Positions 2,542 through 28,760 of a stretch of DNA of 34,287 nt are shown piece after piece. Below the pieces are notes generated by a model, which saw only the letters and a list, made by a program, of their open reading frames with translations, did no database searches and had not been told where the DNA came from. The DNA is from Bacteroidota bacterium (lineage in GTDB: Bacteria; Bacteroidota; Bacteroidia; UKL13-3), in assembly GCA_027482225.1 (NCBI GenBank), contig JAIXWD010000022.1, forward strand, positions 1 to 34,287, written 5' to 3'. A program made the position numbers and the translations under genes. Position 1 is the stretch's first letter; each line of letters opens with the position of its first letter.

Positions 2542-2548
2542 GGTTATA

Positions 2549-3873: not shown

Positions 3874-3876
3874 AGG

Positions 3877-5364
3877 TTAATTTTTATTAATTTTTAAGTC
3901 TTTGGCAATTAAATTAGCAACCACATTTCCGCTGATTATACTTGGTGGTAAACCTGGTCCGGGAACAGTTAACTGCCCAGCAAAGTATAAGTTTTTTATC
4001 TTTTTACTTTTGATGCGTGGTTTAAGTATAGCTGTTTGGTCTAATGTATTTGCTAGGCCATATGCGTTTCCTTTAAATGCATGATAATCGGATACAAAAT
4101 CAGTGTAAGCATAGCTTCTATTGTAAACCACGTGAGGCATGATTTCTGTTTGGGTATGTTTTTCTAATCTTGCCATTATGGTTTTAAAATAACTTTCGCG
4201 CACGGCTTCAGTATCCGCCATTCCTGGTGCTACGGGTATCAGCATAAATAAATTTTCACAACCTTCGGGTGCAACTGTGTTGTCTGTAACACTTGGTGCC
4301 GACACATAAAATAATGGTTCTGTTGGCCATTTTGGTTCAGTATAAATTTCGTGTGCATGACGGGCAAAGTCTGCATCAAAAAATAAGTTATGATGTTGTA
4401 AGCCTGAAATACGTTTGTTTAATCCTATGTAATAAATTAAACAAGAAGGAGCTAGTTTTCTCTTATCCCAATAACTTTCGTTGTATGATTGGTCAGCAGT
4501 TTGTAACAACTTTTGTTCTATGTGATGGTAATCACCTGCTCCTACAATAATATCCGCCTCAAAATAGCCATTTGCAGTTATTACTTTAGTGGCAATTCCA
4601 TTTTCTGTTTCTATTTTTATAACCTCGTGGCTAACTTTAATATCAACACCATGTTTTATTGCAATTGTTTTAAATGCCTCAATAATTTTAAACATTCCGC
4701 CCGTTGGGTACCAAGTACCCAAGCTCATATCGGCATAATTCATTAAGCTATAAAGTGCAGGTGTATTTTTAGAAAGCGCACCTAAAAACAAAATAGGAAA
4801 CTCTAATAATTCAATTAAAAATGGATGAGAAACAAAACCACGTACATGTTTTTTAATGCTGGTAAACACATCCATTTTTATTAAGCCTTTAAGTAAACGG
4901 GCATCTGCAAATTCAAATATGCTTACACTTGGTTTGTAAACTAAATCGTTGATACCAACTTCATATTTGTATTGTGCTTCTTTTAAAAATGATCTAAGTT
5001 TAATGGCACTTCCAGTTTCATAACTTTCAAACAATTGCTCCAGTTCGAGCATGTTAGCGGGTATGGCAACTGCTTCCCCATTTTTATCAAATATTTGGTA
5101 GCTTGGGTCTAATCGTTTTAGTTCGTAAAAATCGGAAGTAGTGTGTCCAAAATCATTGTAAAACTTTTCAAAAACATCGGGCATCCAATACCAACTAGGA
5201 CCCATATCAAATGTAAAACCCTGTGCTTCAAATTTACGGGCCCTGCCACCAACATCGCTATTTTTTTCGAGCAAAGTAACCTTAATCCCTTTTTGGGCTA
5301 AGTAACTCGCAGCGCTAAGTCCTGCTACACCTGATCCTATTACTATTGCTGTTTTTGCAGTCAT
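3877..5364 (-). CDS. crtI: Phytoene desaturase (CrtI type)
   Basis: This FAD-dependent amine-oxidase-like enzyme desaturates phytoene, normally to lycopene. From the first ATG (5364) the protein has 495 residues. The dinucleotide-binding motif GSGVAGLSAA lies at the N-terminus directly after a beta strand (TAIVI), followed by LLEKNSDVGGRA. Near the C-terminus, NLYFAGQLTVPGPGLPPSI is the bacterial-type phytoene dehydrogenase signature. A TTG at 5385 would add seven residues, but the ATG gives the standard short lead to the FAD motif. It follows the TonB receptor gene by 75 bases, including a run of A/T, and precedes crtB by 3 bases. It differs clearly from the crtD-like paralogue at 8295. Confidence 0.93.
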   Translation of the reverse strand: MTAKTAIVIGSGVAGLSAASYLAQKGIKVTLLEKNSDVGGRARKFEAQGFTFDMGPSWYWMPDVFEKFYNDFGHTTSDFYELKRLDPSYQIFDKNGEAVAIPANMLELEQLFESYETGSAIKLRSFLKEAQYKYEVGINDLVYKPSVSIFEFADARLLKGLIKMDVFTSIKKHVRGFVSHPFLIELLEFPILFLGALSKNTPALYSLMNYADMSLGTWYPTGGMFKIIEAFKTIAIKHGVDIKVSHEVIKIETENGIATKVITANGYFEADIIVGAGDYHHIEQKLLQTADQSYNESYWDKRKLAPSCLIYYIGLNKRISGLQHHNLFFDADFARHAHEIYTEPKWPTEPLFYVSAPSVTDNTVAPEGCENLFMLIPVAPGMADTEAVRESYFKTIMARLEKHTQTEIMPHVVYNRSYAYTDFVSDYHAFKGNAYGLANTLDQTAILKPRIKSKKIKNLYFAGQLTVPGPGLPPSIISGNVVANLIAKDLKINKN

Positions 5365-5439
5365 TGATTTTGTTTTGTTTTCCAAGTTGTTGGTATAACA
5401 CCTGCTATTTTAAATTGTTTTTTTTTTTTGATACATTCA

Positions 5440-7851
5440 CTAAAACTCAACAATGAATCCAAATGTAGGTAAGAAAGTGTCGTTAAAGTTAGGAATAATT
5501 TTTGGAATGCCATTACTTCCATCTGTTTTAATGGCTTGTCCATCTGTTGTTGCCCAGCCCGCATTATCTGCTGTACGTTCGAACGCATATTGAGGATTTG
5601 CAGGGTTTTTTGAACGTAAAACATTCTGGATATCAAGAAAAACATCTAAAGTAATGCGCTTAAAATTCCACTTTTTATCAAACCTAATATCAGTTTGATT
5701 AAATGCACCTAAACGAATGGTATTAAGTAAAGAAAAATCAAGCGTACCCGTCCCGGTTAACAAATAATTTTGGCGAGAGCGGTTTTCCTCGAATGGGGTG
5801 TATGGGTTTCCGCCTGCATATCGATGCTTTAAACCCACTTCCCAACCTTTTTTAAATTTGTATCCAGCTATAGCAGAAATTAAATGCCGGTTATCCCATG
5901 CCGAAGCAACGTATTTTGTATTCGCACCACTAAATTGGCTGTAAAAAAAGGTATACGATAAAGTGGTGTAAAATCCTTTAATCAGTTTTTGTTGAAGAAA
6001 AACCTCAAAACCGTAGGCCTGTCCTTTTCCTGAACTGCTTATGTTTTCATTGCCTATGGCACCAAATTCTGTACCTTGATTGGCTAAAGAAATACCATCT
6101 CTTTCAGATATAGAATAATTAAAATATTGTTTATAAAAGCCTTCTAGCGTAATGCGGGTGGTATTTGTAGGAAGGTATTCAATGCCTGCAACATAATGAT
6201 CAACACCAATGTACTTATTGTCTTTATTTTGAAAACGCCCTATACTGTCTTTAAAGCCTAAAATGGTATAACCTGGCAAACGGTAATAACGACCAACGCT
6301 AGCGTTAATATTTAAGTTCGACTTTAACGCGTATGATGCAGATAAGCGTGGTGATAGCGTTTCCCAAATCTTGTTTCCATTATTTAAAAAGGTATTTCCA
6401 TCACTTCGTATGCCAAAAGAAATATTTAATTTATCTGCTAACACACGCCTACTTACATCACCAAAAATACCGTACTTAAAAAATTCAATATTGGTATTGA
6501 GTGGTACATTGAAGTTATTTCCATTAGCTGGATTTCTGAACACAGCAAAACCTTCGTTATTAAATTTCACATATTGAAACATCCCACCATAACTGTATTT
6601 CCACTTGCCACTAAATTTGTTCAAATCAAAACGAAATTTATTTTCTATTTCTTGAGATATCAATTTTAACGTGCGTGTATTTTCGTCTTTGGTTTTGGCA
6701 TCAGTAAAACGGTCTAATCTGTTTTCAAACATATTTCTACTGGCAGATACATTAATAAAACCATTGTTAATTCTACGTTTAAGTGTAGTACCTATGGTAT
6801 AGTTCCATTGGTTAATAATGGGGTTTGATAGTAAAACATATTCTGATTCTGGTGTTGAATTTTTAGGAACAGCAAAACTAAATTGATCAATGGCTCCAAC
6901 GCCTAAAGTGGTGAGTACCGTTTTATTGTCAATTTTAGTTGTGGTTTTGTATTGAAAATCCCAATAATTAGGGCGAATAGGTAAATCGAGTGCCATGAAT
7001 AAAAACTCCAAGTAGCTTCTTCTTGCTGATGCTAAAAAGGTGGTTTTTTTACTGATTGGCCCGTCTAATGTTAAACCAAACTCTGATGCGCTTAGTCTTA
7101 CATTTCCTTGAATACGCTCACTATTTCCATCTCTTTGTTTAAAGCTTAAGACAGATGATAAGGCATTGTCTACATTGGCTTTAAAACTACTGGTAGTTAA
7201 AGAAACTTCCTCAATAAAGCTCACATTTAATATACCTTGTGGTCCGCCACTTGAACCTTGCGTGCTAAAATGATTTATTACTGGAATCTCAATGCCATCA
7301 ATATAAAATACATTTTCACTTGGTCCGCCACCACGTATCAAAATATCATTTCGAAAGGCCCCACCACCAGTATTGCCTCCAACACCTGGCAAGGCTTGAA
7401 TTACCCTGCTGATATCAAAATTTCCACCAGGATTGCTTTTAATTTCTTCTGCAGTTAAATTTTGAACCGAAAGTGGTGTTTCTGTTTTCTTACCGAAAGT
7501 CCTTCTTTGCACTACTACTTCAACTAAACCAAATTTTTCTGGTTCCAATTCAATATTAAAGGTTTGTATGTTACCCGATGTAACCACCACATTAAATAGC
7601 GTTTTTTGTTGATAGCCTAAGTATTGAAGTTTAATATTGTATGATCCAGGAGTAATTCCAATAATCTTAAATTTTCCTTCTAAATCAGATTGGGCTCCAA
7701 ATGATGTTCCTTCTAAAAGTATAGTTGCCCCTGTAAGCAATTCTTGGGTGAATTTGTCTTTTATAACTCCGGTTATTATACCCTTTGATTGAGCGTAAAT
7801 AGCTTGGGTAATTAATACAATGGAAAATAAGACAAAGAGTGATTTTTTCAT
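5440..7851 (-). CDS. TonB-dependent receptor with carboxypeptidase-like N-terminal domain
   Basis: This is an outer-membrane active transporter of 803 residues, starting at the ATG at 7851 (a TTG at 7860 adds three residues). It has a signal peptide ending around YAQ, a carboxypeptidase-regulatory-like beta sandwich (GVIKD...GATILLEGT...GKFKI...PGSYNI...LGY, about 28-110), a plug domain (PGVGGNTGGGAFRNDILIRGG...VFYIDGIEIP) and a 22-strand-type barrel ending in the aromatic FGFIVEF. The substrate cannot be read from the sequence. No SusD-like partner is adjacent, which argues against a classic glycan uptake pair. It is first in the same-strand run leading into crtI with no visible terminator between, so co-transcription with pigment genes is possible. 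Confidence 0.9.
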   Translation of the reverse strand: MKKSLFVLFSIVLITQAIYAQSKGIITGVIKDKFTQELLTGATILLEGTSFGAQSDLEGKFKIIGITPGSYNIKLQYLGYQQKTLFNVVVTSGNIQTFNIELEPEKFGLVEVVVQRRTFGKKTETPLSVQNLTAEEIKSNPGGNFDISRVIQALPGVGGNTGGGAFRNDILIRGGGPSENVFYIDGIEIPVINHFSTQGSSGGPQGILNVSFIEEVSLTTSSFKANVDNALSSVLSFKQRDGNSERIQGNVRLSASEFGLTLDGPISKKTTFLASARRSYLEFLFMALDLPIRPNYWDFQYKTTTKIDNKTVLTTLGVGAIDQFSFAVPKNSTPESEYVLLSNPIINQWNYTIGTTLKRRINNGFINVSASRNMFENRLDRFTDAKTKDENTRTLKLISQEIENKFRFDLNKFSGKWKYSYGGMFQYVKFNNEGFAVFRNPANGNNFNVPLNTNIEFFKYGIFGDVSRRVLADKLNISFGIRSDGNTFLNNGNKIWETLSPRLSASYALKSNLNINASVGRYYRLPGYTILGFKDSIGRFQNKDNKYIGVDHYVAGIEYLPTNTTRITLEGFYKQYFNYSISERDGISLANQGTEFGAIGNENISSSGKGQAYGFEVFLQQKLIKGFYTTLSYTFFYSQFSGANTKYVASAWDNRHLISAIAGYKFKKGWEVGLKHRYAGGNPYTPFEENRSRQNYLLTGTGTLDFSLLNTIRLGAFNQTDIRFDKKWNFKRITLDVFLDIQNVLRSKNPANPQYAFERTADNAGWATTDGQAIKTDGSNGIPKIIPNFNDTFLPTFGFIVEF

Positions 7852-8121
7852 TTTATACAATTATACAGAAAAAACCAAACAGATTCGATATTGTTTTATT
7901 GATTACTAGCTTTTTAAATATGTTAATCACTTTGTTTATGGGTTATTTATTCTGCGAAAATTTGATAGGGTAAAATGTAAATTGATATCATTAGAGGACA
8001 TCTTCAATCGCATGGTTAAATTCTTTTTTAATAAAATAAGTTATTGCAAATCAAATGTTAAATAATAATATAATGCACCTATTAATTGATGATCTGCTAT
8101 TAAAATGATGTTTCTGTCAAT

Positions 8122-8156
8122 TTGAATATTACAAAGAACCTATATAACTAAATTTG
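8122..8156 (+). promoter_or_regulatory. Candidate promoter of the crtD operon
   Basis: TAAATTTG (8149-8156) matches the Bacteroidota -7 consensus TANNTTTG exactly. A TTG at 8122-8124 could serve as the -33 element, but the 24-base spacer is longer than the usual 17-23. The transcript would begin near 8163, giving a leader of about 130 bases before crtD. Confidence 0.4.
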
Positions 8157-8178
8157 ATACATATGAAGTTTTAGTTAA

Positions 8179-8277
8179 ATGATAGAGGTAATGAAAAATA
8201 AAATCATCGGTACATATAGCTTTAAAAACCGTGAGATAAATTTTTATCTGCCTGATTTTAGTGTTTACTTCGCGTAA
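8179..8277 (+). other. Possible 32-codon leader reading frame before crtD
   Basis: An ATG at 8179 (a second in-frame ATG at 8191) opens a frame of 32 codons ending in TAA at 8275-8277, 17 bases before the crtD start. Translation gives MIEVMKNKIIGTYSFKNREI followed by a short hydrophobic-aromatic tail (FYLPDFSVYFA). It lies inside the predicted crtD leader. A frame this short can occur by chance, so it is noted rather than asserted as a gene. Confidence 0.18.
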
Positions 8278-8294
8278 GTATTAATCAAATCACC

Positions 8295-9779
8295 ATGAAT
8301 GTAATTATCATTGGATCGGGAATTGCTGGCTTGGCAAGTGCAGTTAGATTAGCCATTGCCGGACACGTTGTTACTGTTTATGAAAGTAATGCCTATCCCG
8401 GAGGTAAACTCACGGAGATTAATATGGGTGAATTTAGGTTTGATGCAGGCCCTTCATTATTCACACTTCCAGAATTGGTAACTGATTTATTTAAATTAGC
8501 GGGCAAAAATCCCAGCGATTATTTTGAGTACGAGCAAATAGAAAAAGCATGTAACTATTTTTATGAAGATGGTACATCCTTTACTGCCTATCATAATAAG
8601 CAAAAATTTGCGGAGGAGTTAACAAATAAGTTAGGTATTACAAACACAAAATCGCTATTTAAGTACTTAAATAAATCGGCAAAAAAGTACGCTTTAACTG
8701 CACCACTATTTATTGAAAAGTCGTTACACAAGTTAAGTACGTTTACCAGCATAAACACATTAAAGGCTATTTCTAATCTTGGTACTTACCAGCTTACTAA
8801 AACCATAAATGATGTAAACGAAACCGCTTTTAAAGATCCACGTTTGGTGCAATATTTTAATAGATTTGCTACATACAACGGAAGTAGTCCTTATAAGGCT
8901 CCTGGAATGCTTACCATGATACCGCATTTGGAACATAACATAGGCACGTTTTTCCCAAAAGGAGGAATGATAGCTATTACAAACAGCATATATAAATTGG
9001 CGCTTGAATTGGGTGTTAAATTTTTATTTAACAGCTATGTTAAAGAGATAAAAACGGAGGGTGTTAAAAACCAAAAAGTGGTAAAAGGTATTATGGTAAA
9101 TGGGGGATTTGTTCCTGCCGATATCATTTTAAGTAATGCAGATATTCATCCAACATATACTAAACTTTTAAAAAACGAACCTCAACCCAAAAGATTACTA
9201 AACCAAGAGAAGTCTTCCTCAGCTTTAATTTTTTATTGGGGTATTAACAAAGCGTTTCCCGAATTAGATTTACATAATATTTTGTTTAGTAGCGATTACA
9301 AGATTGAATTTAAACACATATTTAGTTATAAAAGTATTTATTACGACCCAACCATTTACATAAACATTACTAGTAAATACAAAACAGATGACGCCCCACA
9401 GGGATGTGAAAATTGGTTTGTTATGATTAATGTTCCAGCTAACACTACTCAGAACTGGGATGCCCATGTTGCACAAGCCCGTAAGCAAATCATTTCAAAA
9501 ATAAATAGGATACTTAAAACTAAAATTGAATCATACATTGTTGCTGAAGAAATTCTAAATCCAGTTACCATAGAAAGTAGAACATCATCTTTTGGTGGGT
9601 CGTTATATGGTAACTCCAGCAATAATATGTACGCTGCATTTTTACGGCATAAAAATTTTAGTAGTAGTATAAAAGGATTGTATTTTTGTGGTGGCAGTGT
9701 TCATCCTGGTGGTGGATTACCGCTATGTTTAAATAGCGCCAAAATTACAACAGAAATTATAAACGAAGATTATTCATGA
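8295..9779 (+). CDS. crtD: CrtI-family desaturase, probably 1-hydroxycarotenoid 3,4-desaturase (CrtD-like)
   Basis: The 494-residue FAD enzyme of the phytoene-desaturase superfamily has GSGIAG at 7-12, YESNAYPGGKL following the second strand, FRFDAGPSLFTLP, and a C-terminal GLYFCGGSVHPGGGLPLCL. The last motif (HPGGGLP rather than the PGPGLPP of the crtI product here) is typical of CrtD-type desaturases. The next gene is a CruF-type 1,2-hydratase, whose product is the substrate of CrtD: introduction of the 3',4' double bond in a 1'-hydroxylated acyclic end. The stop overlaps the cruF start by four bases (ATGA). A second phytoene desaturase is the alternative; context and the C-terminal motif favour CrtD. 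Confidence 0.8.
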   Translation: MNVIIIGSGIAGLASAVRLAIAGHVVTVYESNAYPGGKLTEINMGEFRFDAGPSLFTLPELVTDLFKLAGKNPSDYFEYEQIEKACNYFYEDGTSFTAYHNKQKFAEELTNKLGITNTKSLFKYLNKSAKKYALTAPLFIEKSLHKLSTFTSINTLKAISNLGTYQLTKTINDVNETAFKDPRLVQYFNRFATYNGSSPYKAPGMLTMIPHLEHNIGTFFPKGGMIAITNSIYKLALELGVKFLFNSYVKEIKTEGVKNQKVVKGIMVNGGFVPADIILSNADIHPTYTKLLKNEPQPKRLLNQEKSSSALIFYWGINKAFPELDLHNILFSSDYKIEFKHIFSYKSIYYDPTIYINITSKYKTDDAPQGCENWFVMINVPANTTQNWDAHVAQARKQIISKINRILKTKIESYIVAEEILNPVTIESRTSSFGGSLYGNSSNNMYAAFLRHKNFSSSIKGLYFCGGSVHPGGGLPLCLNSAKITTEIINEDYS

Positions 9780-10423
9780 AAACCAAAACGCCATTTATAG
9801 CTATTGCCATTTTGGTAATTTTACATACGGTGGGTTTAGTAGGAACCGCTTTTTTTAATGAGGACTTGATGAAATTAACCCCTGTCAATTTACTTATCAG
9901 TTTGGCTATTGTATTTTGGTTTCATGAAGACTATAATAAATCGTTTGTATTTTATTTAGCCGTGGTTTACATCTTTGGTTATTTATTAGAGCTAGCAGGA
10001 ATAACTAGTGGTAAAATTTTTGGGCAATATTTTTATGGTAATAATTTAGGTTTAAAACTAGCCGATGTGCCTTTAATAATTGGTATAAATTGGGTAATGC
10101 TAAGTTATTGTAGCATGAGTGCTGTTGGCGTTTTAAGCATCAGGTTTACCTTATTAAAACAACAATTTATAGCTCCGGCAATAGGCGCCCTATTGATGGT
10201 TTTTTCTGATTTCTGGATTGAACAACTTTCTCAGCGACTTGATTTTTGGTACTGGAAGAATAACACGATTCCAATACAAAATTATACAGCTTGGTTTTTG
10301 TTTTCGTTTGCATTTAATTTTTTATTTGTTCGTTTGCAATTACAAAGCACTAACAAAGTTGCTGCGGCATTATTTATACTGCAGTTGTTATTCTTTATTG
10401 GTTTGAATGTGTTTCTTAATTAA
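9776..10423 (+). CDS. cruF: Carotenoid 1,2-hydratase, CruF family
   Basis: This 215-residue integral membrane protein has about six to seven hydrophobic segments. It carries the CruF / bisanhydrobacterioruberin-hydratase (DUF422) pattern ELAGITSGKIFGQYFYG (about 80-96) followed by GLKLADVPLIIGINW (about 100-114). Enzymes of this family add water across the terminal 1',2' double bond of an acyclic psi end, giving the tertiary alcohol found in myxol and saproxanthin. It overlaps crtD by four bases, which indicates coupled expression of hydratase and desaturase. crtZ follows 31 bases later. Confidence 0.85.
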   Translation: MKTKTPFIAIAILVILHTVGLVGTAFFNEDLMKLTPVNLLISLAIVFWFHEDYNKSFVFYLAVVYIFGYLLELAGITSGKIFGQYFYGNNLGLKLADVPLIIGINWVMLSYCSMSAVGVLSIRFTLLKQQFIAPAIGALLMVFSDFWIEQLSQRLDFWYWKNNTIPIQNYTAWFLFSFAFNFLFVRLQLQSTNKVAAALFILQLLFFIGLNVFLN

Positions 10424-10454
10424 ACTTTTAATCTAACTTATTGTTATTTATAGT

Positions 10455-10913
10455 ATGATACTTTTGAATATGATGATTGTAATAGCCACCTTCTTTTTTA
10501 TGGAGTTTATGGCTTGGTTTTCACACAAGTTTGTAATGCATGGTTTTTTATGGTATCTACATAAGGATCATCACCAGGTTGAGCCAGGTTTTTTTGAAAA
10601 GAATGACGCTTTCTTTTTAATTTATGCTGTACCAAGTGCATACTGTTACATGACAGGTTTAATGGCTGGAGGCGACTTTAGGTTATATATAGGTATTGGC
10701 ATTTCGTTATACGGTTTAGCTTATTTTGTGGTTCATGATATTATTATTCATCAACGGTTTAAAATATTTACCCACTGGAATAACCGATATGTAAGAGCTA
10801 TAAGAAGAGCACATAAAATGCATCATAAACATTTAAATAAAGAACACAGTGAAAATTTTGGTATGCTCATTGTTCCCATAAAATATTGGAAAGACCCCAA
10901 CACCAGTAAATAA
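10455..10913 (+). CDS. crtZ: Beta-carotene 3-hydroxylase
   Basis: A 152-residue membrane di-iron hydroxylase of the fatty-acid-hydroxylase superfamily. The expected histidine clusters are all present: HKFVMH (24-29), HKDHH (36-40), HDIIIH (94-99) and HKMHH (120-124), on a protein with four hydrophobic helices. It hydroxylates C3 of the beta-ionone ring made by the cyclase encoded 12 bases downstream. Length and motif spacing are those of bacterial CrtZ. Confidence 0.93.
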   Translation: MILLNMMIVIATFFFMEFMAWFSHKFVMHGFLWYLHKDHHQVEPGFFEKNDAFFLIYAVPSAYCYMTGLMAGGDFRLYIGIGISLYGLAYFVVHDIIIHQRFKIFTHWNNRYVRAIRRAHKMHHKHLNKEHSENFGMLIVPIKYWKDPNTSK

Positions 10914-10925
10914 TTCGAATAAAAT

Positions 10926-11615
10926 ATGACATTGTATGCGTGGTTAATGTTTGCATCCTTTCTCGGTCCCTTTTTGTTAAGTTTTGATAAAAAAGTAGCC
11001 TTTTATAAAAATTGGCTTCCGTTGTTTGCTGGTATTTCCATAAATGGTCTAATCTTTATTTTATGGGATGGATGGTTTGCCAGAACCGGTGTTTGGGGCT
11101 TTAACAATGATTATGTTTGGCAAACTAGAGTCAATGATTTGCCTATAGAAGAATGGCTTTTCTTTTTTGTAGTGCCTTATGCAAGTGTTTTTATTTATGC
11201 TTGTTTAAAAGCCTACTTCAAAACAGAACCTTTTGCCAAATACAAACACCACATTACCCTTTTTTTTCTGACATTATCCTTTGTAATGGCATTATTTAAC
11301 TCTGATAAAACTTATACGTTTTATAATTGCCTTATAGCCTCAGTTCTTTTATTAATTCACTACTTATTTATAAAGAGTAGTTGGATGGGGTATTTTTGGT
11401 TGGCTTATTTGATACACTTGGTACCATTTTTTATTATTAATGGAATACTTACAGGTGCAGCCACCACAGAGCCTGTTGTTTGGTATAACAATAGCGAAAA
11501 TGTTGGAATACGCCTTTACACCATTCCTATTGAGGATACTGTTTATGCTCTTACTTGTTTGTTGTTACCTATAACAGTAATGGAATGGATACAAACTAAA
11601 ACTGCAAATAAATAG
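10926..11615 (+). CDS. crtYcd: Lycopene beta-cyclase, fused CrtYc-CrtYd type
   Basis: This 229-residue, multi-spanning membrane protein combines the two subunits of the heterodimeric (actinobacterial/archaeal) lycopene cyclase. Each half has its motif: GVWGFN plus LPIEEWLFF (72-80) in the first and IPIEDTVYALTCLLLP (200-215) in the second. It closes the psi end of lycopene to a beta ring. Coexistence with cruF and crtD suggests that only one end is cyclised, giving a gamma-carotene-type intermediate. It is the last gene of the rightward set, and its final 20 bases overlap the end of the opposing MBOAT gene. Confidence 0.9.
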   Translation: MTLYAWLMFASFLGPFLLSFDKKVAFYKNWLPLFAGISINGLIFILWDGWFARTGVWGFNNDYVWQTRVNDLPIEEWLFFFVVPYASVFIYACLKAYFKTEPFAKYKHHITLFFLTLSFVMALFNSDKTYTFYNCLIASVLLLIHYLFIKSSWMGYFWLAYLIHLVPFFIINGILTGAATTEPVVWYNNSENVGIRLYTIPIEDTVYALTCLLLPITVMEWIQTKTANK

Positions 11616-17381: not shown

Positions 17382-18545
17382 GTGAAAAATACCAATCCAC
17401 TTCGCAAAACCATCGGAATCATAGGTGGTGGTCAACTTGGTCGTATGATGATCGAAGAGTCTCTTCGCTTGAATAACGATTTTAATATTTTGGATGCTGC
17501 AGATTGCTCTTGTGCTGCGCTAGCAAAAAATCATATCATAGGAAAACTTACAGACGGTGATGCTATCAGAAAACTAGCTGAAATTAGCGATGTACTTACT
17601 TTTGAAATTGAACACATTGATGTTGATACATTGATGCAATTAGAGAAAGAGGGTAAAGAAATTATTCCATCTCCTCAAGTATTACAAATAATTCAGGATA
17701 AAGGAATTCAGAAAGATTTTTTTAAAACCCATCAAATACCAACCGCACCTTTTATTTTGGTTGAAAATTCTGAAGATTGGATTAACGCCATACATCAACT
17801 TGGAGGCGAAAAGTTAGTTGCTAAAACACGTAAAGATGGCTATGATGGAAAGGGGGTAACCATTTTTAAATCTGCAGATGTATTGTCAAATTCGCAGCTA
17901 ATTCCATTTAATTCGCCTAGTTTAGTTGAAGTTTTTATTCCTTGCCAAAAAGAAATTTCGGTTATGGTAGCCCGCGATGTTCATGGAAATATAAAGACAT
18001 GGCCAGTAGTTGAAATGGAGTTTGATCCCAATGCAAATTTGGTTACATTCTTAGATTGTCCGGCAAATCTTTCTTTAGAAATGGAACATGAGGCTCGAGA
18101 GATAGCATTAAGAACCATTGAAAAACTAAATGGTGTAGGAGTTTATGCAGTTGAAATGTTTCTAACAAATGAAAACCAAATATTGGTGAATGAGGTTGCT
18201 CCAAGACCGCACAATTCTGGCCATCATACCATTGAAGCTTGTTACACCTCTCAATTCGAGCAATTAGTCAGAATATTGATGGGTTTACCTTTAGGAAGTA
18301 CAGATTTAATTCAGCCAGCTGTTATGATGAATTTATTAGGTGCTGATGATTTTACTGGAACATATAGGCTTCAAGGACTAGAAGAAGTGAGTGCAATAGA
18401 GGGTGTTTATGTGCACTTGTATGGTAAAAAAGAAAGTAAGCCCATGCGTAAAATGGGACATATTACTGTAACAGCTGCAACGCTTAATGCTGCTAAAGAA
18501 AAAGCCAAGCAAGTAAGCAAACTTGTTAAATTTATAATTGAATAA
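17382..18545 (+). CDS. purK: N5-carboxyaminoimidazole ribonucleotide synthase
   Basis: PurK uses ATP and bicarbonate to carboxylate AIR in de novo purine synthesis; its product is the substrate of PurE, encoded at 28257. The 387-residue ATP-grasp protein has the N-terminal [12 protein letters not shown], the ATP-binding [30 protein letters not shown], and [18 protein letters not shown] near the metal site. Only a GTG at 17382 can start it, as the conserved [10 protein letters not shown] lies just 10 codons in. A TATTTTTG string at 17370-17377 sits directly upstream; if it is the -7 box the mRNA would be nearly leaderless. A strong terminator follows. Confidence 0.95.
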
Positions 18546-18563
18546 AATTAAACGCAACATTTT

Positions 18564-18607
18564 TTAAAACAAAACGCCCTTACATTTGCAAGGGCGTTTT
18601 GTTTTAA
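18564..18607. terminator. Long bidirectional terminator between purK and the giant adhesin gene
   Basis: The arms 18564-18581 and 18590-18607 pair over 18 bases without mismatch. The GC-rich core AACGCCCTT/AAGGGCGTT closes an 8-base loop (ACATTTGC), and A/T tails on both sides supply a U run in either direction. It lies 18 bases after the purK stop and includes the stop codon of the opposing giant gene (18604-18606). Confidence 0.85.
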
Positions 18608-21600
18608 TGTTTAATTATTTTATGTGTGCTGAGCCCATCTGACGTATTGAGTTTAAGTAAATAAACTCCTGGTTGCAGGTTACTTATATTAATGTTGTTC
18701 AGCGCTTTTGCCTCTTTAACTAATACTCCTTTAACGTCAAATATTTTTAAGTCTATAATATCTTTTTTGGTTTCAATATTTATCCAATCTTTTGTTGGTA
18801 TTGGATATACATTAATATTTGTTTCTATTCGTTTTTCTTCACTTAATACCACGGTATTAGAGTAATTATAATCTCCGTTTTGTTCAGTAATTTTAAGTCT
18901 ATAATAAGCAATATCTAAATTTGCCGCATTTTCATCCTTAAACAAATACACTTGCGTGGTACTTTTGTTGGTAGCTTTAACAACTCCTATGTTCGTAAAT
19001 AGTCCACCATCATCAGAGCGTTGTACCTCGTAATATGCAATGTTTTTTTCTTGGGCAACATTCCAAGTTAGTTGGTTCATGCCTAACATACGCTTTCCTT
19101 CAAAATAGGTGATACTAACTGGCAATGGATTATTATTGTCTGTTATAATTAATAAGAACCTATTACCATAGGTGTTAATTAAATTGTTGTTGATAGTGAA
19201 TGCATAAGTATTGTTTAAACGTAAATTGGTTAAACTGTTGTTGTTTAAATCTCTTAATAAAACCATTTTGTTACTTGGTATTTGGTTTAGTTTATCAAAC
19301 GAAAGGGTATAAGCCGAGTTTGTTGATGAGCTTACGCTAAGTACAAATGTATCTGATTGATTTAATGCAAGGAAATCTACAATGTTATGTTGGGTAGCCA
19401 CGTTATTGGTGGTTTTGAAAGATAGGTTATACCCTGTATTTGCTAACTTCAAGCCATCCTCCTTAAACACATAATTTTTACTTGCACCGCCCATAAATTT
19501 GAGCCAAGCAATATCGTATTGTATGCTATCAAGGTTCATTTTTACGATTAATTCTTGGCTATTTTTAAAATACGCTGTAGCACTTATAGCCGTTTTATCA
19601 TTCTCTTCAAATGTTACATTTTGTGATGTTTGTGTTGCCCTTACAAAAAATGCTTGCCCAGAAGAAATAGTACCTGTAGCGTTACCAACATATCCTTTAG
19701 TAACAGGATTCCAAACCCAGAAATAATTGTCTATTTGTGCTGTTTTGTTCATGTTTTCCCAATCAATTTGACTTGGGTAAGGATTACCTAACAAGTTAAA
19801 ACCTTTACCATAAATAGGAGTAGAATCGTTTGCAAAATCTAGTGCAACAGTAATATCACCTTTATTAATTGGTCCAACATAATCTGCGGTAACATCATTA
19901 GGAACAATAGATGTATTGGTTAAAGAAGTAGTTTGAGTTCTATCACCCCTAAAAAATACAAGTGCACCTTTTCCTGCTGTAAGCGTATTATTGATATTTG
20001 ATATACTTGACCAACCACGCGTGGCCGACTCTTGCCAAGTTCTGATAGAAGAGGTAGGCCCTGCAATATCAAAACCAGCAGAAATACCACCAGGTCCGCT
20101 CACCAAAATATCATCATTTAATTGTGTGTATGCATTACTCGTTGTAGGAATACTCATCATTCTCCAGCCTCTCATGATAGAATTATTACCAACAATATAA
20201 CGCTGTAAAGTTACATCACCTGTTATATCTGCATTGCTTCCAAGTTGTGCAATTCTACCGGTGCCACTAAGATTTGACAATAGTTTTAATTTATTACCAG
20301 TAGCAATTGTTCCTGCAGTAGGGGTCACTGTTCCGTTGTGCATTATTACAAGCGTATCAGCAATGGTAACTGTTTGATTTATTCTGTTGATGGTGAAGTT
20401 TAGTAATGCATTTGTGTTGCCATTGGTAGTTTGATCCATGAAAAGCGAACCAAACTCAACACCTCCCGTAATGTTAAGTGATGAAGTAGGACTACCTTTA
20501 AATTTGCCACTACCAATTAAAGCACCTGTTATGGTTAAACTATATCCGTTTAAATCAATTGTTTTACCTGCAGGTAAATCAATGTATCCAATATTCCAAT
20601 TACTGTTAAGTTGAATATTATTTGTAGCAGTTAAACTAACTTGAATATATGAACCTTCAGGTGGTGTGGAATTACCCTGCCAGTTAGTACCCGATGTATG
20701 ATTGGTTGATGCATTTCCATTCCATATGTATGGACCTTCTCTGAATAAACCATATATACCAGCTCCAATTGCAGGAGAAAAACTGCTTGTTGTTGCATCT
20801 ACATTATACCTAACAGTTGATGTTGTTAGTAATTTTTGAAGTCCATCACATAACCCGTATTTAGCGGTATAAAGCATGGCGGTTCCACCGTTGCCAATAT
20901 TTATGTTACCATTACCTGATAATAAAATATTACCACCAGTTCCATCACCAACTAGTTTACTTTTATCTGTAAACAACTTGAGTGCGTTTGCTGTGGTGTT
21001 GGTGGTTGAAAGATTTTCAGTTACGTTGATGTCACCACCATTTGTTTCAATATAAACTGTGCCTGAAGAATAAATACCAGGTGTATTTACGTTGCCAATA
21101 GTTAGTCCATCTGAAGCATCAATAAAGTTCAAGTTGCCAATTTTTACAGCATTGGTGCCTGCTGCAATGGTTAAAATGTTGTTTGATGTATTGTTTAAGG
21201 TAAACGTGCCGACACCAGAAAGTGATAAGCCATTTGCTGTAATGGGTTGTGTTTGTGTAACAACTGTTGAAGCTTCCAAAGTAATGTTACTATTGGTGGC
21301 AGTTAAAGTCCCATTAATGGCAATATTACCCCCGTATGCTTCAATAGGACCTGATGCGTTGGTATTGCTTGCAATTGTAATATTAGCTGTATTGCCAGAT
21401 TTACCTAATGCTAATCCTCCTATAGTACTAGAAATTGTGAAACTAGGAATAGGATAACTTAATGGATTGGTGAAGCTTGCGCTTACTGGTTGAATAACCA
21501 ACCTGCCTGCGCCTGAAAATCCTGAGCTATTTGTAGCGGGTATATCTTGTTCAATCACCAGTGAACCTGCATTAATAGTAGTTGCACCTGTATAGGTATT

Positions 21601-24600
21601 TAAACCACTAATGGTATGTGTGCCATTGCCAGACTTAATTAAACTGCCAGTACCACTTATTACTCCGGGATATTTTGATGAGTCACTTCTGTTAAATGTT
21701 AAAGTGCCATAGTTAACAATATTACTGGTAATAGATCCAGTAGTAGATGCATTTCCTATAGTTAAAGATTTATTTAAATCTATTGTAGTTATGCCACTAT
21801 GTGTACATGTTCCCGTTAATGTGATAGGGGCACCAACTTGTAAAATATCTTCGGTGCCTTCAAAATTACTTAGTATCGTTTGTGCTGTGCTGCGGTTAAA
21901 AATTACAAGCCCATTATTAATAACTGTACTGCCTGAAGGAAAACTAGAACTTGCATTTGTAATTTCTTGTGTACCTCTGGATGTGAAGCTGTAAGTATTA
22001 GGACTTATAACATTTGTTACGGTATTGCTAAGCGTAGTAATGCCTGTGTAGCTTAATGCACCTGTAAAATTAACTTTCCCTGATAAATATACTTGTGCAA
22101 TTCCATAACCTGTTCCGCTTGAACTGGTAGCTAATCCACCTATTGCAATACTTCCTGTTGACATATTTACGCCTAAATGATTGCCAGATCTGTATGCAGC
22201 ACCACCATAAATAGAGGTATTTGCACGTATTTGAACATTCGTTCCCGACTGACTTAACAAGGCAAATACACATTTTGTATATTGACCATCATATTGTTGG
22301 AATTGTAGCGATGCTATATTGGTTGCCGCATCATAAGATTTCACATAAGCACCTGCCATTAAAGAACCGCCACCTATAACTTGTTGTCCATCCATTAGGC
22401 CGCCTGTAATTCGGGTTAATACTTCTAAAACGGAACTACTTGTAATCATTGTAGCGGCAGTTCCGGTTAAAAAGGAGTTATAATAATTTCCAGATGCACC
22501 TTTAATTTCAACTCCTCCATCTCCTGAGATAGGTGCTGCAAAAACTAAATTCTCGTTAGGAGTTAAAATTAATTTTGAACCACTCGCAACGGTTACTCCT
22601 GATGTATTGGAAATAGTTCCACTTGAAGCTTGACTTAGAGAACCTCCTGTTCCAACTTGAAGGTCTCCTCCTGAAATGGTAGTAATTCCGGTGTAAGTGT
22701 GGTCTTTAGTTAAAGTTAACAAACCGGCTCCAGTCTTTGTTAATCTACTACCTGTTCCACTAATAACACCATCGTATGAGGAATTAGAAGAAATATTAAT
22801 GGTGGCTGTTCTACCTGTAGCTACAGCTAAATTACCTGTTCCAGAAATACTCGTTCCATTAATGTTGATATTCCCAATTGTAGAATTGGAGGATGTAATA
22901 TTGGCGTTTAAAGCAATAGTACTACCTAATAGATTAAAACTACCGCCTAAACCAAAGTCCGAACTAACTGTAATATTTGAAGTATTACCTATATTGACTG
23001 TAGCGCCATTATTCAGAAGTCCAGTATATCTACCGATGGTCAAACCGTCTACTGACGCAACGGTTAAGATTCTTATGCCATTATAAAAGCCGGTATTGAT
23101 TAAATAGTCGCCTGAATTTATGGTGCCTCCTAACGTCAATGCACTTGTATAACTACCACCATTTGGCGCCAATGTGATTAAACCAGCAGATCTAAGCCAA
23201 ATAGCTCCCGAGGTGCTTGATGCAATAAAGGTGATATCACCATTACCCGTATTGATTACTCTAGTGCCATTTGATGCAATACCATTTGTGCCTCCACTTA
23301 CACCATTTCCTGCCCAGGCAAAAAAATCACCACCGTTGGTTGTAACATTATTAAATAAGTCCATTGCATTTGCATTAAAGCCACTTGACCCAATAGCTGG
23401 ACCATCACCTACAGTTAACCCATTCCAGGTATAGCTTCCTCCGTTTGTGTTAGAACCGCCTAACCAAACATGTCCGCCATTAGTTGTGATTGCACCACTA
23501 AAACCAGAACCTCCATCGTTATTAGAGTTGTCAAAATCAGACCAAAGCACCACATTCAAAACACCCGTTCCACTGGCAGTAATGGTGCCATTATGAGTTG
23601 GCCTTCCATGTGATTGTAAAGTAAGCGTTCCCGTTCCAGCAGTTTTGGTTACAAATGAAGATATTGTTATAAAACTTCCAATTCCCTTTAGAAAAATGTC
23701 TCCATTGGCGGTTGAGGTTAAATCGCCACTAACTGTAATATTGCCTCCATAATAACTCACCGGACCTGCGATGGTCAAATGAGAGTTTTGTAATATGTTT
23801 GCCGTGTTGCCTGTTTTACCAATGGTAATTCCACTAATGCCATTGGCATCTTGGTCTATTCCAAACCAAGTTGTTTGCATATCTTGCCCAAAAGCAACAT
23901 CACTCGGTTCAAAGGTAAAACTACCTGTTCCGTTAATATAAGGTCGTTCAGTACTACCAATACTAAAAGCCGCTGTTTCACCTCTAATAATAATATTTCC
24001 TACTCCAGGGTTAAGCGTAGAGTAATCGAGGTCTAAAACACCTGAACCATTGGCATCTTTATCTGCATGAATTATAATGTTTCCACCTGCAGAACTGATG
24101 TTTCTGCGTGTGGTACCAAAAGTGCCAAAATTTGCATTGGTATTGATGGCGATATTAGAAGCGCTACTTGTTGTAACATTTATGCCATTATTTAAACTAA
24201 AATCATTAGAATTAAATGTTGCTGAGCCTCCAAGTGAAATGGAAGCATTAACCGCAATTGTTTTTACTCCATTCGAATTAATAACAAATGGATTATTGGC
24301 ACTACTTGTAATTGCCCCATTAATAGTAACATTTCCAGCTTCTATAATGAGTGCATCGCTTATTAGATAATTTGCTAAAACAGATGAATTAATATTGACT
24401 GGAGTGGTAATTGTAGAAATAACCCCATTTTCATAAATCCAAGTAGAATTGATAGTATCCCCACCCGAACTCACAATAGTTAAATCTCCAATTCCCAAGC
24501 TAGTTCTGTATATTGCATGCGCAGTATTGGTATTGAGTGCAGGGGTAAAGGTCGTTGTAGTTTCATCAAAATTGTAGCGCACATTGTTGCTGCCACCTAC

Positions 24601-27600
24601 CAAGGTGGTGAGACCATTGCTATTTATTTCCAAACCGCTGAACAGCTTCGCTATACCGCCCGTTCCCACAGAGATTGTAGGCGTGCCATTAACAGAAATA
24701 TCGCCTCCTACATTCACTCCTATTGATGTACTTTTTCCTGCATTAATAATAAGGGCATTTGCAGTAGTGTTATTTGTAGTTACGGATCCATTTAAGTTAA
24801 TATTTCCATTCAATGTTTCAACCAAAACAACTCCTGAGTTGGTATGAATTCCATTTAAACTGCCAACAGCTCCAATAGTTAATCCGCCTAACGCATCAGT
24901 ATAACTTAAAGAACCTAAACGACTTAATGCAGAGCCTCCAGCTATGGTAACAACATTGTTGCTTGTATTATTTAAAGTTACTGTGCCTGATCCTGTTAAT
25001 GATAAATTATCCGCGTTTATCGCAGCGGTTTGAGTTAATGCAGTATTAGTTTCAATGCTCAGGTTTGAATTGATTGCGCTTAATGTACCATTCACGGCAA
25101 TTGTTCCGCCATAAATATCAATTGGTGCTGCCAAAGAGATAGGCGATGCAATAGATATAGCAGAGGTGTTACCTGATTTTCCTATGGTTAAACTAGAAGC
25201 GTTTTCTGCTAAAATATGGTTGGTATTAAATGGAAAACTTAAAGCAGCTGTGAAGCTCGCACCAGTTGGTATATAGGCTACATCACCAGTTGTTTTTACT
25301 TTAAATCCATTTAAGCCAGCCAATTCATAACGATTAAAAGTAAAGCTAACATCACCTGTAGCTGCCCATATACCATTTTGAGGTGAGCCAACATAAATGT
25401 CTCCCCAGCTTGATGATCCAATGCCATAGGCTCCTGTTGTGCCGGCATTTCCTGATATTTCGATATTGCCGTTTTTCGATAGTAAGTTGATATGACGCGT
25501 TTGTCCCGCAGATCCAACTTCACGGTAAAAATTTATGGCCCCTGTATTATTACTTTGTGTATTAGTAAGTAAACCAGAAAGTATAATATTTCCATTTTCG
25601 GTTTCAATTGTTGATCCTGAACTTATACCAAAAGTAATACCCCCAAAATAATTGGTTCCGTTGTTTCCGCCAAAAGCCTCTCCATACAATTCAATTGTAC
25701 CGGCACCTGAAGTAATAAAATTCCCACGCAGACGGATTCCATCATTGTAACTTCCATTACACTTTCCATATATTTTAATGTTTCCGCCAGCAGCATTCAA
25801 TGTGGCCCCTTGAATCAATATTCCAATATTATTCGTTGTTCCGGTAGCATACAAACCGGGTCCTTGAGCACCCGTAAAGTTGCCTCCTAGTGTTAGATTT
25901 CCACCTTTCGAAAGTATACTTACATCACTATTCAAAGTGATAGCAGTACCACTGGTAACAGAACCTTCCGAGTTGGAGCGAATGGTGATATTTCCACCAT
26001 TGGTTTGAATTGTTTCATTGGCATCAATAACAATTCTACCTATTGCTTGAATTAATATGGTCGTATTGATTGGCGTAACATTTAAATTCTGGCTAATGGT
26101 TATGTCTTTACCATAAATATTTACAGGTCCATTATGATTTATGGATGAACGCATATGGCCTAAAACCACGTCTTGGTTGTTTGTTGTCTTACCTAGATTA
26201 AGCCCACCTATGCCATTGTTATCTTGGTCTATATCAAACCAAATGGTATTGATAGCTTGCCCAAATGTAGCCGTATTTGGTTCGAAAGTAAAATTTCCAG
26301 TTCCGTTAATGTAGGGTTTGTCTGTATTGTTGGTTGTAATCCAATTCATGGTAGAACCGCGTATGATCGTATTTCCTGAACCTGGATTAAATGTTAAGTA
26401 ATCCAGTTCTAAAATACCTGTGCCATTACCATCCGCATCCGCATTGATGGTTATATTTCCGCCTGAAGTGGATATTGTTTGTCGGATATTTGAGGTGTAA
26501 ATATGATTGATGGCATTGATTGTAATATTTGATGCTGTCGTTGAAGTTATGTTCTTGTTAATTGTGAAATTTCCAGAATGAAAAGTAATTGGTCCTGCAA
26601 CGCTTAATTCATTGGTGTAACTTAAATCGGCTGTATTGGTTGATTTACCATAGGTAAAACTGCTTAGTTGAGTGCCAAAATTCCAATCATTATCAAATGT
26701 AAGCGTGCCCACATTTCCAGCACGCATAAACGTGAACGCATTTCCGGTAGGTTGAATGGTTAGGTTACCTGTAGTTTGTATGGCTAGTGATCCCGAACCC
26801 GCATTTTGGTTTCTTTGGTAAATGGAATTACCTTCAATTAATATGTTACCTGAATAAGAATTTGTTCCATCGAAACCAACTCTAATTGAATTTGTTACAT
26901 CACTCGCATGAAAACGAATAGAGTTGCAATATTGCCCAGATGATTCAAGCGTATTTGTTCCTCTGAGTGATATATTCCCAGAACGTGATATAATTTCCGT
27001 AGATCCTCCAATTCCTAAACCTTCTTTATCATTTATAGTTGCCGTAAAGTTTGCATTTCCTTCTATTTGTATATTTCCTGAAACAGATGAGATTATTGTT
27101 TTTGAAGTCGATGAAAAACCCTTAATAATTGCACCAAATCGAAAACTATTATCGTTTGGGGCTTGATCAGACCCTGTTCCCCTAATAATTATTGATCCCG
27201 TTGTGGCGGTAATCGATGTTGTTCCTGATGTTGCTTCTATGCGGGTGCCATTACCATTTGTATATCTACCAGTTACTTCTCCGTTAATTTCAATATTGCC
27301 ACTTGCACTTGAAATACTGGAGTTTATCACATGAACACCATAATTCACTCCGCTGTTTGAATTAGAATTCCAAGAAAGACCGGCTAAATAAACATTGCCC
27401 CCATTTGTGTTTAAAGTGGAGTTTTCAACCCATAATCCAGGCAAATCATCTGACCAAGTTCTCGCCAAAGAATTCCCTACCGTCAAGCCATTCCATGTCG
27501 CGTTTCCATCCCCTCCGCCAATCCATAAATGTCCACCGTTGGTGTTGATGGTATTATTGTTTCTGATTGAAACTATCCCATCATCAGGATTAGTTCCTGT

Positions 27601-28026
27601 GGCAGCTCTTAAAACCACATTCAAGGCACCATTGGTGGCTGTGATTGATTGATTGGTTGTAGTAATGAAGATATCATTGGCTATAGAAAATGTTAACGTT
27701 CGGGTTTCCGAACCTGTGTAAGTGATTGTTCCAACAATGGAGCATTGTCTTGCAACGCCAATTTGCCCTGGGAGAACCACAGTCAGGTTTCCCAAATTGT
27801 TTAAGTGGTTGGAAATAACACTCGGGTGGATGTTTGCAGACCCAGAAGCACCCACATTTAGCGTATTTCCGGTAATGCTCCAATTCGTACCTGAGGTCCC
27901 TGTTTGCCCAGAAGTTGAAATGGTTAAATGTTGTGCCTGTGTGGGTTTTACCCCCAAAATTAAGAATATAATTAAACCAGTAAAATACCATTTAATTTTA
28001 AGACACTGCCCAGCTTTTTCTCTCAT
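18604..28026 (-). CDS. Giant beta-strand-repeat surface protein with T9SS C-terminal domain
   Basis: The 3140-residue protein has a signal peptide with a basic start (hydrophobic about 14-25, cleavage near TQA-QH at 31). Residues 32 to about 2500 are Gly/Asn/Thr/Ser-rich beta-helix repeats (NGGxxxI-type strands, GLTIGKTGNT, FTFEP), resembling filamentous-haemagglutinin and autotransporter passengers. Two autotransporter-associated strand repeats are visible (about 1750-1795 and 2120-2160, with GTGSLIKSGNGTHTISGLN). After that come a Bacteroidota surface-protein module (GWRMMSIP ... GFNLLGNPYPSQIDW, about 2610-2810), a fibronectin-like domain (LPVSITYFEG ... YYRLKITEQNGDY, about 2965-3060) and a type A T9SS sorting domain (YPIPTKDWINI ... 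PGVYLLKL, about 3070-3140). It is probably secreted and surface-attached, likely an adhesin. No outer-membrane beta-barrel is present. Confidence 0.92.
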   Translation of the reverse strand: MREKAGQCLKIKWYFTGLIIFLILGVKPTQAQHLTISTSGQTGTSGTNWSITGNTLNVGASGSANIHPSVISNHLNNLGNLTVVLPGQIGVARQCSIVGTITYTGSETRTLTFSIANDIFITTTNQSITATNGALNVVLRAATGTNPDDGIVSIRNNNTINTNGGHLWIGGGDGNATWNGLTVGNSLARTWSDDLPGLWVENSTLNTNGGNVYLAGLSWNSNSNSGVNYGVHVINSSISSASGNIEINGEVTGRYTNGNGTRIEATSGTTSITATTGSIIIRGTGSDQAPNDNSFRFGAIIKGFSSTSKTIISSVSGNIQIEGNANFTATINDKEGLGIGGSTEIISRSGNISLRGTNTLESSGQYCNSIRFHASDVTNSIRVGFDGTNSYSGNILIEGNSIYQRNQNAGSGSLAIQTTGNLTIQPTGNAFTFMRAGNVGTLTFDNDWNFGTQLSSFTYGKSTNTADLSYTNELSVAGPITFHSGNFTINKNITSTTASNITINAINHIYTSNIRQTISTSGGNITINADADGNGTGILELDYLTFNPGSGNTIIRGSTMNWITTNNTDKPYINGTGNFTFEPNTATFGQAINTIWFDIDQDNNGIGGLNLGKTTNNQDVVLGHMRSSINHNGPVNIYGKDITISQNLNVTPINTTILIQAIGRIVIDANETIQTNGGNITIRSNSEGSVTSGTAITLNSDVSILSKGGNLTLGGNFTGAQGPGLYATGTTNNIGILIQGATLNAAGGNIKIYGKCNGSYNDGIRLRGNFITSGAGTIELYGEAFGGNNGTNYFGGITFGISSGSTIETENGNIILSGLLTNTQSNNTGAINFYREVGSAGQTRHINLLSKNGNIEISGNAGTTGAYGIGSSSWGDIYVGSPQNGIWAATGDVSFTFNRYELAGLNGFKVKTTGDVAYIPTGASFTAALSFPFNTNHILAENASSLTIGKSGNTSAISIASPISLAAPIDIYGGTIAVNGTLSAINSNLSIETNTALTQTAAINADNLSLTGSGTVTLNNTSNNVVTIAGGSALSRLGSLSYTDALGGLTIGAVGSLNGIHTNSGVVLVETLNGNINLNGSVTTNNTTANALIINAGKSTSIGVNVGGDISVNGTPTISVGTGGIAKLFSGLEINSNGLTTLVGGSNNVRYNFDETTTTFTPALNTNTAHAIYRTSLGIGDLTIVSSGGDTINSTWIYENGVISTITTPVNINSSVLANYLISDALIIEAGNVTINGAITSSANNPFVINSNGVKTIAVNASISLGGSATFNSNDFSLNNGINVTTSSASNIAINTNANFGTFGTTRRNISSAGGNIIIHADKDANGSGVLDLDYSTLNPGVGNIIIRGETAAFSIGSTERPYINGTGSFTFEPSDVAFGQDMQTTWFGIDQDANGISGITIGKTGNTANILQNSHLTIAGPVSYYGGNITVSGDLTSTANGDIFLKGIGSFITISSFVTKTAGTGTLTLQSHGRPTHNGTITASGTGVLNVVLWSDFDNSNNDGGSGFSGAITTNGGHVWLGGSNTNGGSYTWNGLTVGDGPAIGSSGFNANAMDLFNNVTTNGGDFFAWAGNGVSGGTNGIASNGTRVINTGNGDITFIASSTSGAIWLRSAGLITLAPNGGSYTSALTLGGTINSGDYLINTGFYNGIRILTVASVDGLTIGRYTGLLNNGATVNIGNTSNITVSSDFGLGGSFNLLGSTIALNANITSSNSTIGNININGTSISGTGNLAVATGRTATINISSNSSYDGVISGTGSRLTKTGAGLLTLTKDHTYTGITTISGGDLQVGTGGSLSQASSGTISNTSGVTVASGSKLILTPNENLVFAAPISGDGGVEIKGASGNYYNSFLTGTAATMITSSSVLEVLTRITGGLMDGQQVIGGGSLMAGAYVKSYDAATNIASLQFQQYDGQYTKCVFALLSQSGTNVQIRANTSIYGGAAYRSGNHLGVNMSTGSIAIGGLATSSSGTGYGIAQVYLSGKVNFTGALSYTGITTLSNTVTNVISPNTYSFTSRGTQEITNASSSFPSGSTVINNGLVIFNRSTAQTILSNFEGTEDILQVGAPITLTGTCTHSGITTIDLNKSLTIGNASTTGSITSNIVNYGTLTFNRSDSSKYPGVISGTGSLIKSGNGTHTISGLNTYTGATTINAGSLVIEQDIPATNSSGFSGAGRLVIQPVSASFTNPLSYPIPSFTISSTIGGLALGKSGNTANITIASNTNASGPIEAYGGNIAINGTLTATNSNITLEASTVVTQTQPITANGLSLSGVGTFTLNNTSNNILTIAAGTNAVKIGNLNFIDASDGLTIGNVNTPGIYSSGTVYIETNGGDINVTENLSTTNTTANALKLFTDKSKLVGDGTGGNILLSGNGNINIGNGGTAMLYTAKYGLCDGLQKLLTTSTVRYNVDATTSSFSPAIGAGIYGLFREGPYIWNGNASTNHTSGTNWQGNSTPPEGSYIQVSLTATNNIQLNSNWNIGYIDLPAGKTIDLNGYSLTITGALIGSGKFKGSPTSSLNITGGVEFGSLFMDQTTNGNTNALLNFTINRINQTVTIADTLVIMHNGTVTPTAGTIATGNKLKLLSNLSGTGRIAQLGSNADITGDVTLQRYIVGNNSIMRGWRMMSIPTTSNAYTQLNDDILVSGPGGISAGFDIAGPTSSIRTWQESATRGWSSISNINNTLTAGKGALVFFRGDRTQTTSLTNTSIVPNDVTADYVGPINKGDITVALDFANDSTPIYGKGFNLLGNPYPSQIDWENMNKTAQIDNYFWVWNPVTKGYVGNATGTISSGQAFFVRATQTSQNVTFEENDKTAISATAYFKNSQELIVKMNLDSIQYDIAWLKFMGGASKNYVFKEDGLKLANTGYNLSFKTTNNVATQHNIVDFLALNQSDTFVLSVSSSTNSAYTLSFDKLNQIPSNKMVLLRDLNNNSLTNLRLNNTYAFTINNNLINTYGNRFLLIITDNNNPLPVSITYFEGKRMLGMNQLTWNVAQEKNIAYYEVQRSDDGGLFTNIGVVKATNKSTTQVYLFKDENAANLDIAYYRLKITEQNGDYNYSNTVVLSEEKRIETNINVYPIPTKDWINIETKKDIIDLKIFDVKGVLVKEAKALNNINISNLQPGVYLLKLNTSDGLSTHKIIKH

Positions 28027-28256: not shown

Positions 28257-28760
28257 ATGAAAACAGTAGGTATAATAATGGGAAGTGATAGCGATCTTGA
28301 AGTAATGCAAGAAGCTGAAAGAGTTCTAAATCATTTTAAAGTTGATTATGAAATTACTGTTGTATCCGCCCATCGTACCCCTGAAAGGATGTTTGAATAT
28401 GCTAAAACAGCACGTAGTCGTGGTTTAAAAGTAATTATTGCAGGTGCTGGCGGTGCTGCTCATCTGCCTGGTATGGTTGCATCAATAACCACACTTCCTG
28501 TTGTTGGTGTTCCAGTTAAGTTGAAAGCCTTAGACGGACTAGACTCCTTGTTATCTATTGTACAAATGCCTGGTGGCGTTCCGGTTGCTACCGTTGCCAT
28601 TAACAATGCTAAAAATGCAGGATTGCTAGCAGTTCAAATTTTAGCCACATACGATGATGAGTTGGCCGATGCCATGCAAGTATATAAAGATAAAATGAAA
28701 GAAGAAGTGCTTGAAAAAGCAGAAAAAGTAGAACACGGACGTAAAAAAATTGGTTTTTAA
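28257..28760 (+). CDS. purE: N5-carboxyaminoimidazole ribonucleotide mutase (class I)
   Basis: PurE moves the carboxyl group of N5-CAIR to C4, giving CAIR, directly after PurK in purine synthesis. The 167-residue protein has the class I motifs: GSDSDLEVM (9-17), SAHRTPERM (39-47), [14 protein letters not shown] (61-74) and [17 protein letters not shown]. The presence of purK in the same window supports the class I reaction. The gene is plus-strand like purK but lies 9.7 kb beyond it, behind the giant adhesin gene. A TATTTTCG string upstream (28233-28240) is a one-mismatch -7 candidate. Confidence 0.96.

Follow-up and report, generated by a model that had tools for sequence, protein, structure and literature searches.

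Organization of the locus

The window analyzed here is a stretch of 34,287 nucleotides from contig JAIXWD010000022.1 of a Bacteroidota bacterium, whose genome (G000) has a size of 2.7 Mb in 24 contigs. Between a purK-like and a purE-like gene it encodes one giant protein of 3140 aa, with a mass of ~322 kDa without its signal peptide. We confirmed the open reading frame (18604-28026) reported in an earlier sequence-only reading of this DNA and found it on the minus strand, which that reading left unstated; the plus strand of the same interval is full of stops. The start of the gene lies ~230 bp from purE. The giant protein consists of a signal peptide, a beta-rich passenger of ~2400 residues, a cassette of ~630 residues and a type A sorting domain of the type IX secretion system (T9SS). 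The features are the following:

17382..18545, plus: purK-like gene, left neighbor, convergent with the giant gene (named from sequence reading)
18566..18605, no strand: bidirectional terminator-like inverted repeat between the convergent purK and giant genes (read from sequence)
18604..28026, minus (28026 to 18604): giant protein ORF (P0001), one uninterrupted 3140-aa frame
18607..18810, minus: T9SS type A sorting domain, residues 3073-3140 (TIGR04183, PF18962)
18829..20709, minus: C-terminal cassette without Pfam name, residues 2440-3066 (homology search of relatives)
20752..21624, minus: predicted third beta-rich module, residues ~2135-2425 (AlphaFold, self-comparison)
21553..21645, minus: PATR/autotransporter repeat 2, residues 2128-2158 (Pfam/NCBIfam profiles)
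21844..22500, minus: poorly modelled stretch, residues ~1843-2061 (pLDDT mostly <50)
22654..22743, minus: PATR/autotransporter repeat 1, residues 1762-1791 (Pfam/NCBIfam profiles)
23224..24291, minus: predicted second beta-helix stretch, residues 1246-1601 (AlphaFold, VIA-align, self-comparison)
24637..27930, minus: predicted N-terminal beta-helix, residues 33 to ~1130 (AlphaFold, structural comparison)
27931..28026, minus: predicted Sec signal peptide, residues 1-32 (hydrophobic core, ...KPTQAQ; read from the translation)
28257..28760, plus: purE-like gene, right neighbor, divergent from the giant gene (named from sequence reading)

Sorting domain, PATR repeats and likely export route

Two families exceed the cut-offs of Pfam and NCBIfam in the giant protein, namely the PATR repeat and the T9SS type A domain. 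The latter closes the protein, as the sequence-only reading had proposed, and is full-length (TIGR04183, positions 1-72 of 72, E=5.4e-11; PF18962, E=4.1e-11). Type A domains send their proteins along a route via PorV that ends in static anchoring or release (PMC12618676). The genome encodes the T9SS translocon, shuttle, sortase and motor (SprA, PorV, PorU, and GldM, all above cut-off) and contains other sorting-domain ORFs of 3000-4500 residues. The cassette preceding the sorting domain is common to other T9SS cargo of the family, with non-ortholog matches mostly at residues ~2400-2840.

The autotransporter-associated strand repeats, also proposed earlier, are present in two copies, both well over the curated cut-offs (PF12951, E=1.1e-11; TIGR02601, E=2.3e-14). 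The giant protein is the sole ORF of this genome that matches TIGR02601, compared to 94 type A sorting-domain matches, which argues that the pairing of PATR and T9SS in this protein is not due to chance. The repeats probably represent coils of a beta-helix and not a device for type V export.

Together with a TpsA-like predicted fold (see below), the PATR repeats would fit a genuine type V protein, either an autotransporter or a TpsA protein, with an irrelevant sorting-domain-like tail, exported by a barrel or TpsB protein encoded elsewhere in the genome. We consider this very improbable, since the autotransporter barrel (PF03797) is absent from both the giant protein and the whole genome while E. 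coli and Caulobacter controls ring, in line with the earlier claim that there is no beta-barrel translocator. In addition, no TPS domain was matched at E up to 10 in the N-terminal 1200 residues and relatives (11 members), and the protein lacks the NPNG/NPNL motif, NPNG being the TPS motif (PMC10284417). The abundance of sorting domains in the genome likewise speaks against a type V protein. A search of the genome for PF03865 (TpsB), run without any ringing control, gave no match. With sorting domains, SprA, PorV, PorU, and GldM in the genome and no autotransporter barrel, export by T9SS is the economical inference. The giant protein is thus likely a type A T9SS cargo, specifically a large, repetitive, adhesin-like surface protein.

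Predicted fold and rod length

The alignments used for AlphaFold modelling (A1, A2) were assembled from loci in other genomes. The model of residues 28-1225 (mean pLDDT 75.6, pTM 0.68) is nearly all-beta up to residue ~1130, and the model of residues 1246-2440 (mean pLDDT 60.7) is good over residues 1246-1495 and fair to good over residues ~2135-2425. A beta-helix, which the sequence-only reading had considered as possibly continuous, is therefore predicted over most of the tested passenger but not over residues ~1843-2061, where the low pLDDT may reflect a break in the helix or an inserted segment.

Used by itself, Foldseek found no match for either model at E up to 0.001, and the structural ranking was obtained by rescoring Foldseek candidates with VIA-align. 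Among solved chains, the N-terminal model comes closest to the secretion domain of HMW1 (Z 25.0 over 282 residues at 3.1 A), followed by EtpA (Z 22.9 over 744 residues at 7.1 A); HxuA, a hemopexin-binding TpsA protein, reaches Z 20.9 but at 17.6 A. HMW1 is likewise matched by the second model (Z 21.2), as is the secretion domain of EtpA (Z 20.2). That a stretch outside the N-terminus scores almost as high against HMW1 shows that the likeness concerns the type of helix and not the TPS domain. The haemagglutinin-like helix of the sequence-only reading accordingly has no basis in sequence matches (no haemagglutinin or TPS family in Pfam or NCBIfam, and none at E up to 10 in the N-terminal 1200 residues and relatives), although TpsA adhesins are what the predicted folds suggest. 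PDB sequence searches with the protein and with profiles A1 and A2 returned nothing relevant.

Many other solved beta-helices matching the N-terminal model are lyases and glucanases. A PATR- and T9SS-bearing protein of the same class (L143) is a rhamnogalacturonan lyase, and the giant protein could by the same token be an enzyme secreted in beta-helix form, namely a polysaccharide lyase or hydrolase, instead of an adhesin. We regard this as improbable because no catalytic family of Pfam or NCBIfam was matched at any position, and because HMW1 and EtpA rank above the lyases and tailspikes (Z ~16 or less). By analogy with the nearest folds (HMW1, EtpA, and FHA), the adhesin-like cargo probably serves in adhesion or aggregation. 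The label ‘adhesin’ rests on fold and size, as no binding domain was recognized in the protein; a coat-like or polysaccharide-binding role may apply as well.

Self-comparison revealed that residues 1307-1475 repeat residues 515-687 (46% identity) and residues 2174-2420 repeat residues 914-1164 (43-49% identity), while the two PATR regions are 54% alike to each other. Tandem Repeats Finder detected no DNA arrays in the gene, indicating that the protein repeats have diverged.

A beta-helix rises 0.48 nm per coil. With 19-33 residues per coil, the computed length is 35-61 nm for 2400 passenger residues and 45-79 nm for all 3109 mature residues. For comparison, FHA (230 kDa) forms a 40 nm rod from ~80 repeats of at least 19 residues (PMC3756990). 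The passenger rod should accordingly be about 35-60 nm long, and the number of strands in the model points to larger coils and hence to the lower end of this range. The fibre of a hundred nanometers or more that had been put forward is about twofold too long; a length of 100 nm was rejected, as it would take ~15 residues per coil.

In the export route that we propose, the giant protein would be exported by Sec through the signal peptide read from the sequence. PorV would then recognize the type A domain before passage through the SprA/Sov translocon (the genome encodes both components), and PorU would act ahead of anchoring or release, as described for other type A cargo (PMC12618676; PMC10202324). 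The passenger would project as a right-handed beta-helix rod of ~35-60 nm, composed of shuffled and duplicated modules.

Comparison with known secretion systems

The predicted architecture is similar to that of the TpsA proteins HMW1, EtpA, and FHA (type Vb), which share a long right-handed beta-helix with imperfect repeats, a similar size and a presumed adhesin role, HMW1 and EtpA being the top structural matches. Unlike TpsA proteins, the giant protein has a C-terminal T9SS signal in place of a TPS family match and NPNG motif. PATR repeats are frequent in passengers of classical autotransporters (type Va) but do not define them. The giant protein resembles these autotransporters in that its beta-rich passenger holds two PATR/TIGR02601 repeats, and differs in the missing C-terminal beta-barrel and in the minor share of PATR, which is undetected in the ortholog of a related genome (G002).

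Signal peptide, full type A domain and a T9SS-encoding genome are shared with type A cargo (TIGR04183/PF18962) such as RemA, whereas the passenger is a predicted TpsA-like helix and not a lectin or enzyme. SprB carries a type B domain and has an SprF shuttle. The giant protein is as giant and repetitive as SprB and other type B T9SS adhesins, but its domain is of type A and no PorP/SprF-like gene was recognized beside its gene.

Domain matches, the content of the genome and the predicted folds thus support the idea of a passenger of type V-like fold carried by T9SS, with three qualifications: the nearest folds belong to two-partner (type Vb) exoproteins and not to PATR autotransporters specifically, PATR is variable, and the pairing is found widely across the class. 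Unrelated export machines carry one and the same stalk architecture of beta-helix type together with PATR repeats, and PATR in a database name is therefore no proof of type V secretion. The giant protein also offers a test case for how a beta-helix of >2000 residues passes the T9SS translocon.

PATR repeats and T9SS across the class

Searching G000 and 57 relatives, we found the TIGR02601 repeat in 14 genomes. A comparison of 16 long ORFs (the giant protein, 13 repeat-bearing ORFs from relatives and two homologs) gave a Pfam sorting domain in 14, PATR at E up to 0.001 in 12 and a barrel in none. Across the class, the repeat occurs in 38 of 295 genomes and 29 of 155 genera. All 13 complete repeat-bearing ORFs of other families contain PATR, ten have a sorting domain and none has a PF03797 barrel; two are rhamnogalacturonan lyases, including L143. 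Judged by these domain matches, PATR and T9SS are habitually paired in the class, and their combination is not exceptional. The giant protein genuinely carries a T9SS tag and a type V-like stalk, and is in this an ordinary member of its class. A literature search, with most subscription journals outside its reach, found no paper that links autotransporter strand repeats to type IX secretion, and the pairing may be undescribed so far.

In one relative, a PATR-bearing ORF (L039, 6069-12875) has a pair of dockerin-like repeats (GDINQDGSVDFNDY, DLNGDASVDFNDY) at its end in place of a sorting domain.

The purK-purE site and possible passenger exchange

The giant gene lies between purK and purE in G000 and G002, as well as in G004 and G005 (split contigs). 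In five relatives without it (G003, G007, G008, G037, and G038), purK and purE are adjacent on the same strand, indicating that a segment of ~9.7 kb entered the site in one clade. The G002 ortholog is 58-92% identical over the last 700 residues and only 26-39% identical, out of order, over the first 600. Over residues 1-500, a protein encoded at a different site in another metagenome-assembled genome (L016) shares 52-63% identity with the giant protein. The absence of a TIGR02601 match in G002 indicates that PATR is not a constant part. Sequence comparison thus suggests exchange of passenger modules with conservation of the C-terminal anchor, although loss, duplication or unequal rates may also have contributed.

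The size of the protein and its stalk-like helix are also reminiscent of toxin delivery stalks such as CdiA-type TpsA proteins. A toxin stalk is extremely improbable here, as the C-terminus is a sorting domain plus cassette conserved at the above 58-92% in the clade, and not a variable toxin end, and no immunity-like gene was recognized beside the giant gene. For the T9SS-anchored adhesin-like protein, a tentative and rather unlikely extension is that the purK-purE site serves as an exchangeable passenger platform, in which the T9SS anchor is kept and TpsA-like modules are swapped in from other Bacteroidota. If true, such a platform would employ T9SS as a means of surface variation.

Some further observations concern neighboring genes. 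In G001, purK is followed by a different, oppositely oriented ORF (L075, 5754-6377) in a contig that shows no purE, and the purK side may therefore be a site of repeated insertion. No regulator-like ORF stands beside the gene in the window, whereas one of ~610-660 aa with a LuxR-like C-terminal end (L013, 1347-3317; L014, 7968-9863; L016, 7662-9488) is located directly upstream of each of three homologs from other taxa, in the same orientation. Elsewhere in the window (2032-11615) lies a carotenoid-type gene set (idi, crtB, two crtI-like genes, a hydroxylase-like and a lycopene cyclase-like gene), named from a look at the sequence only.
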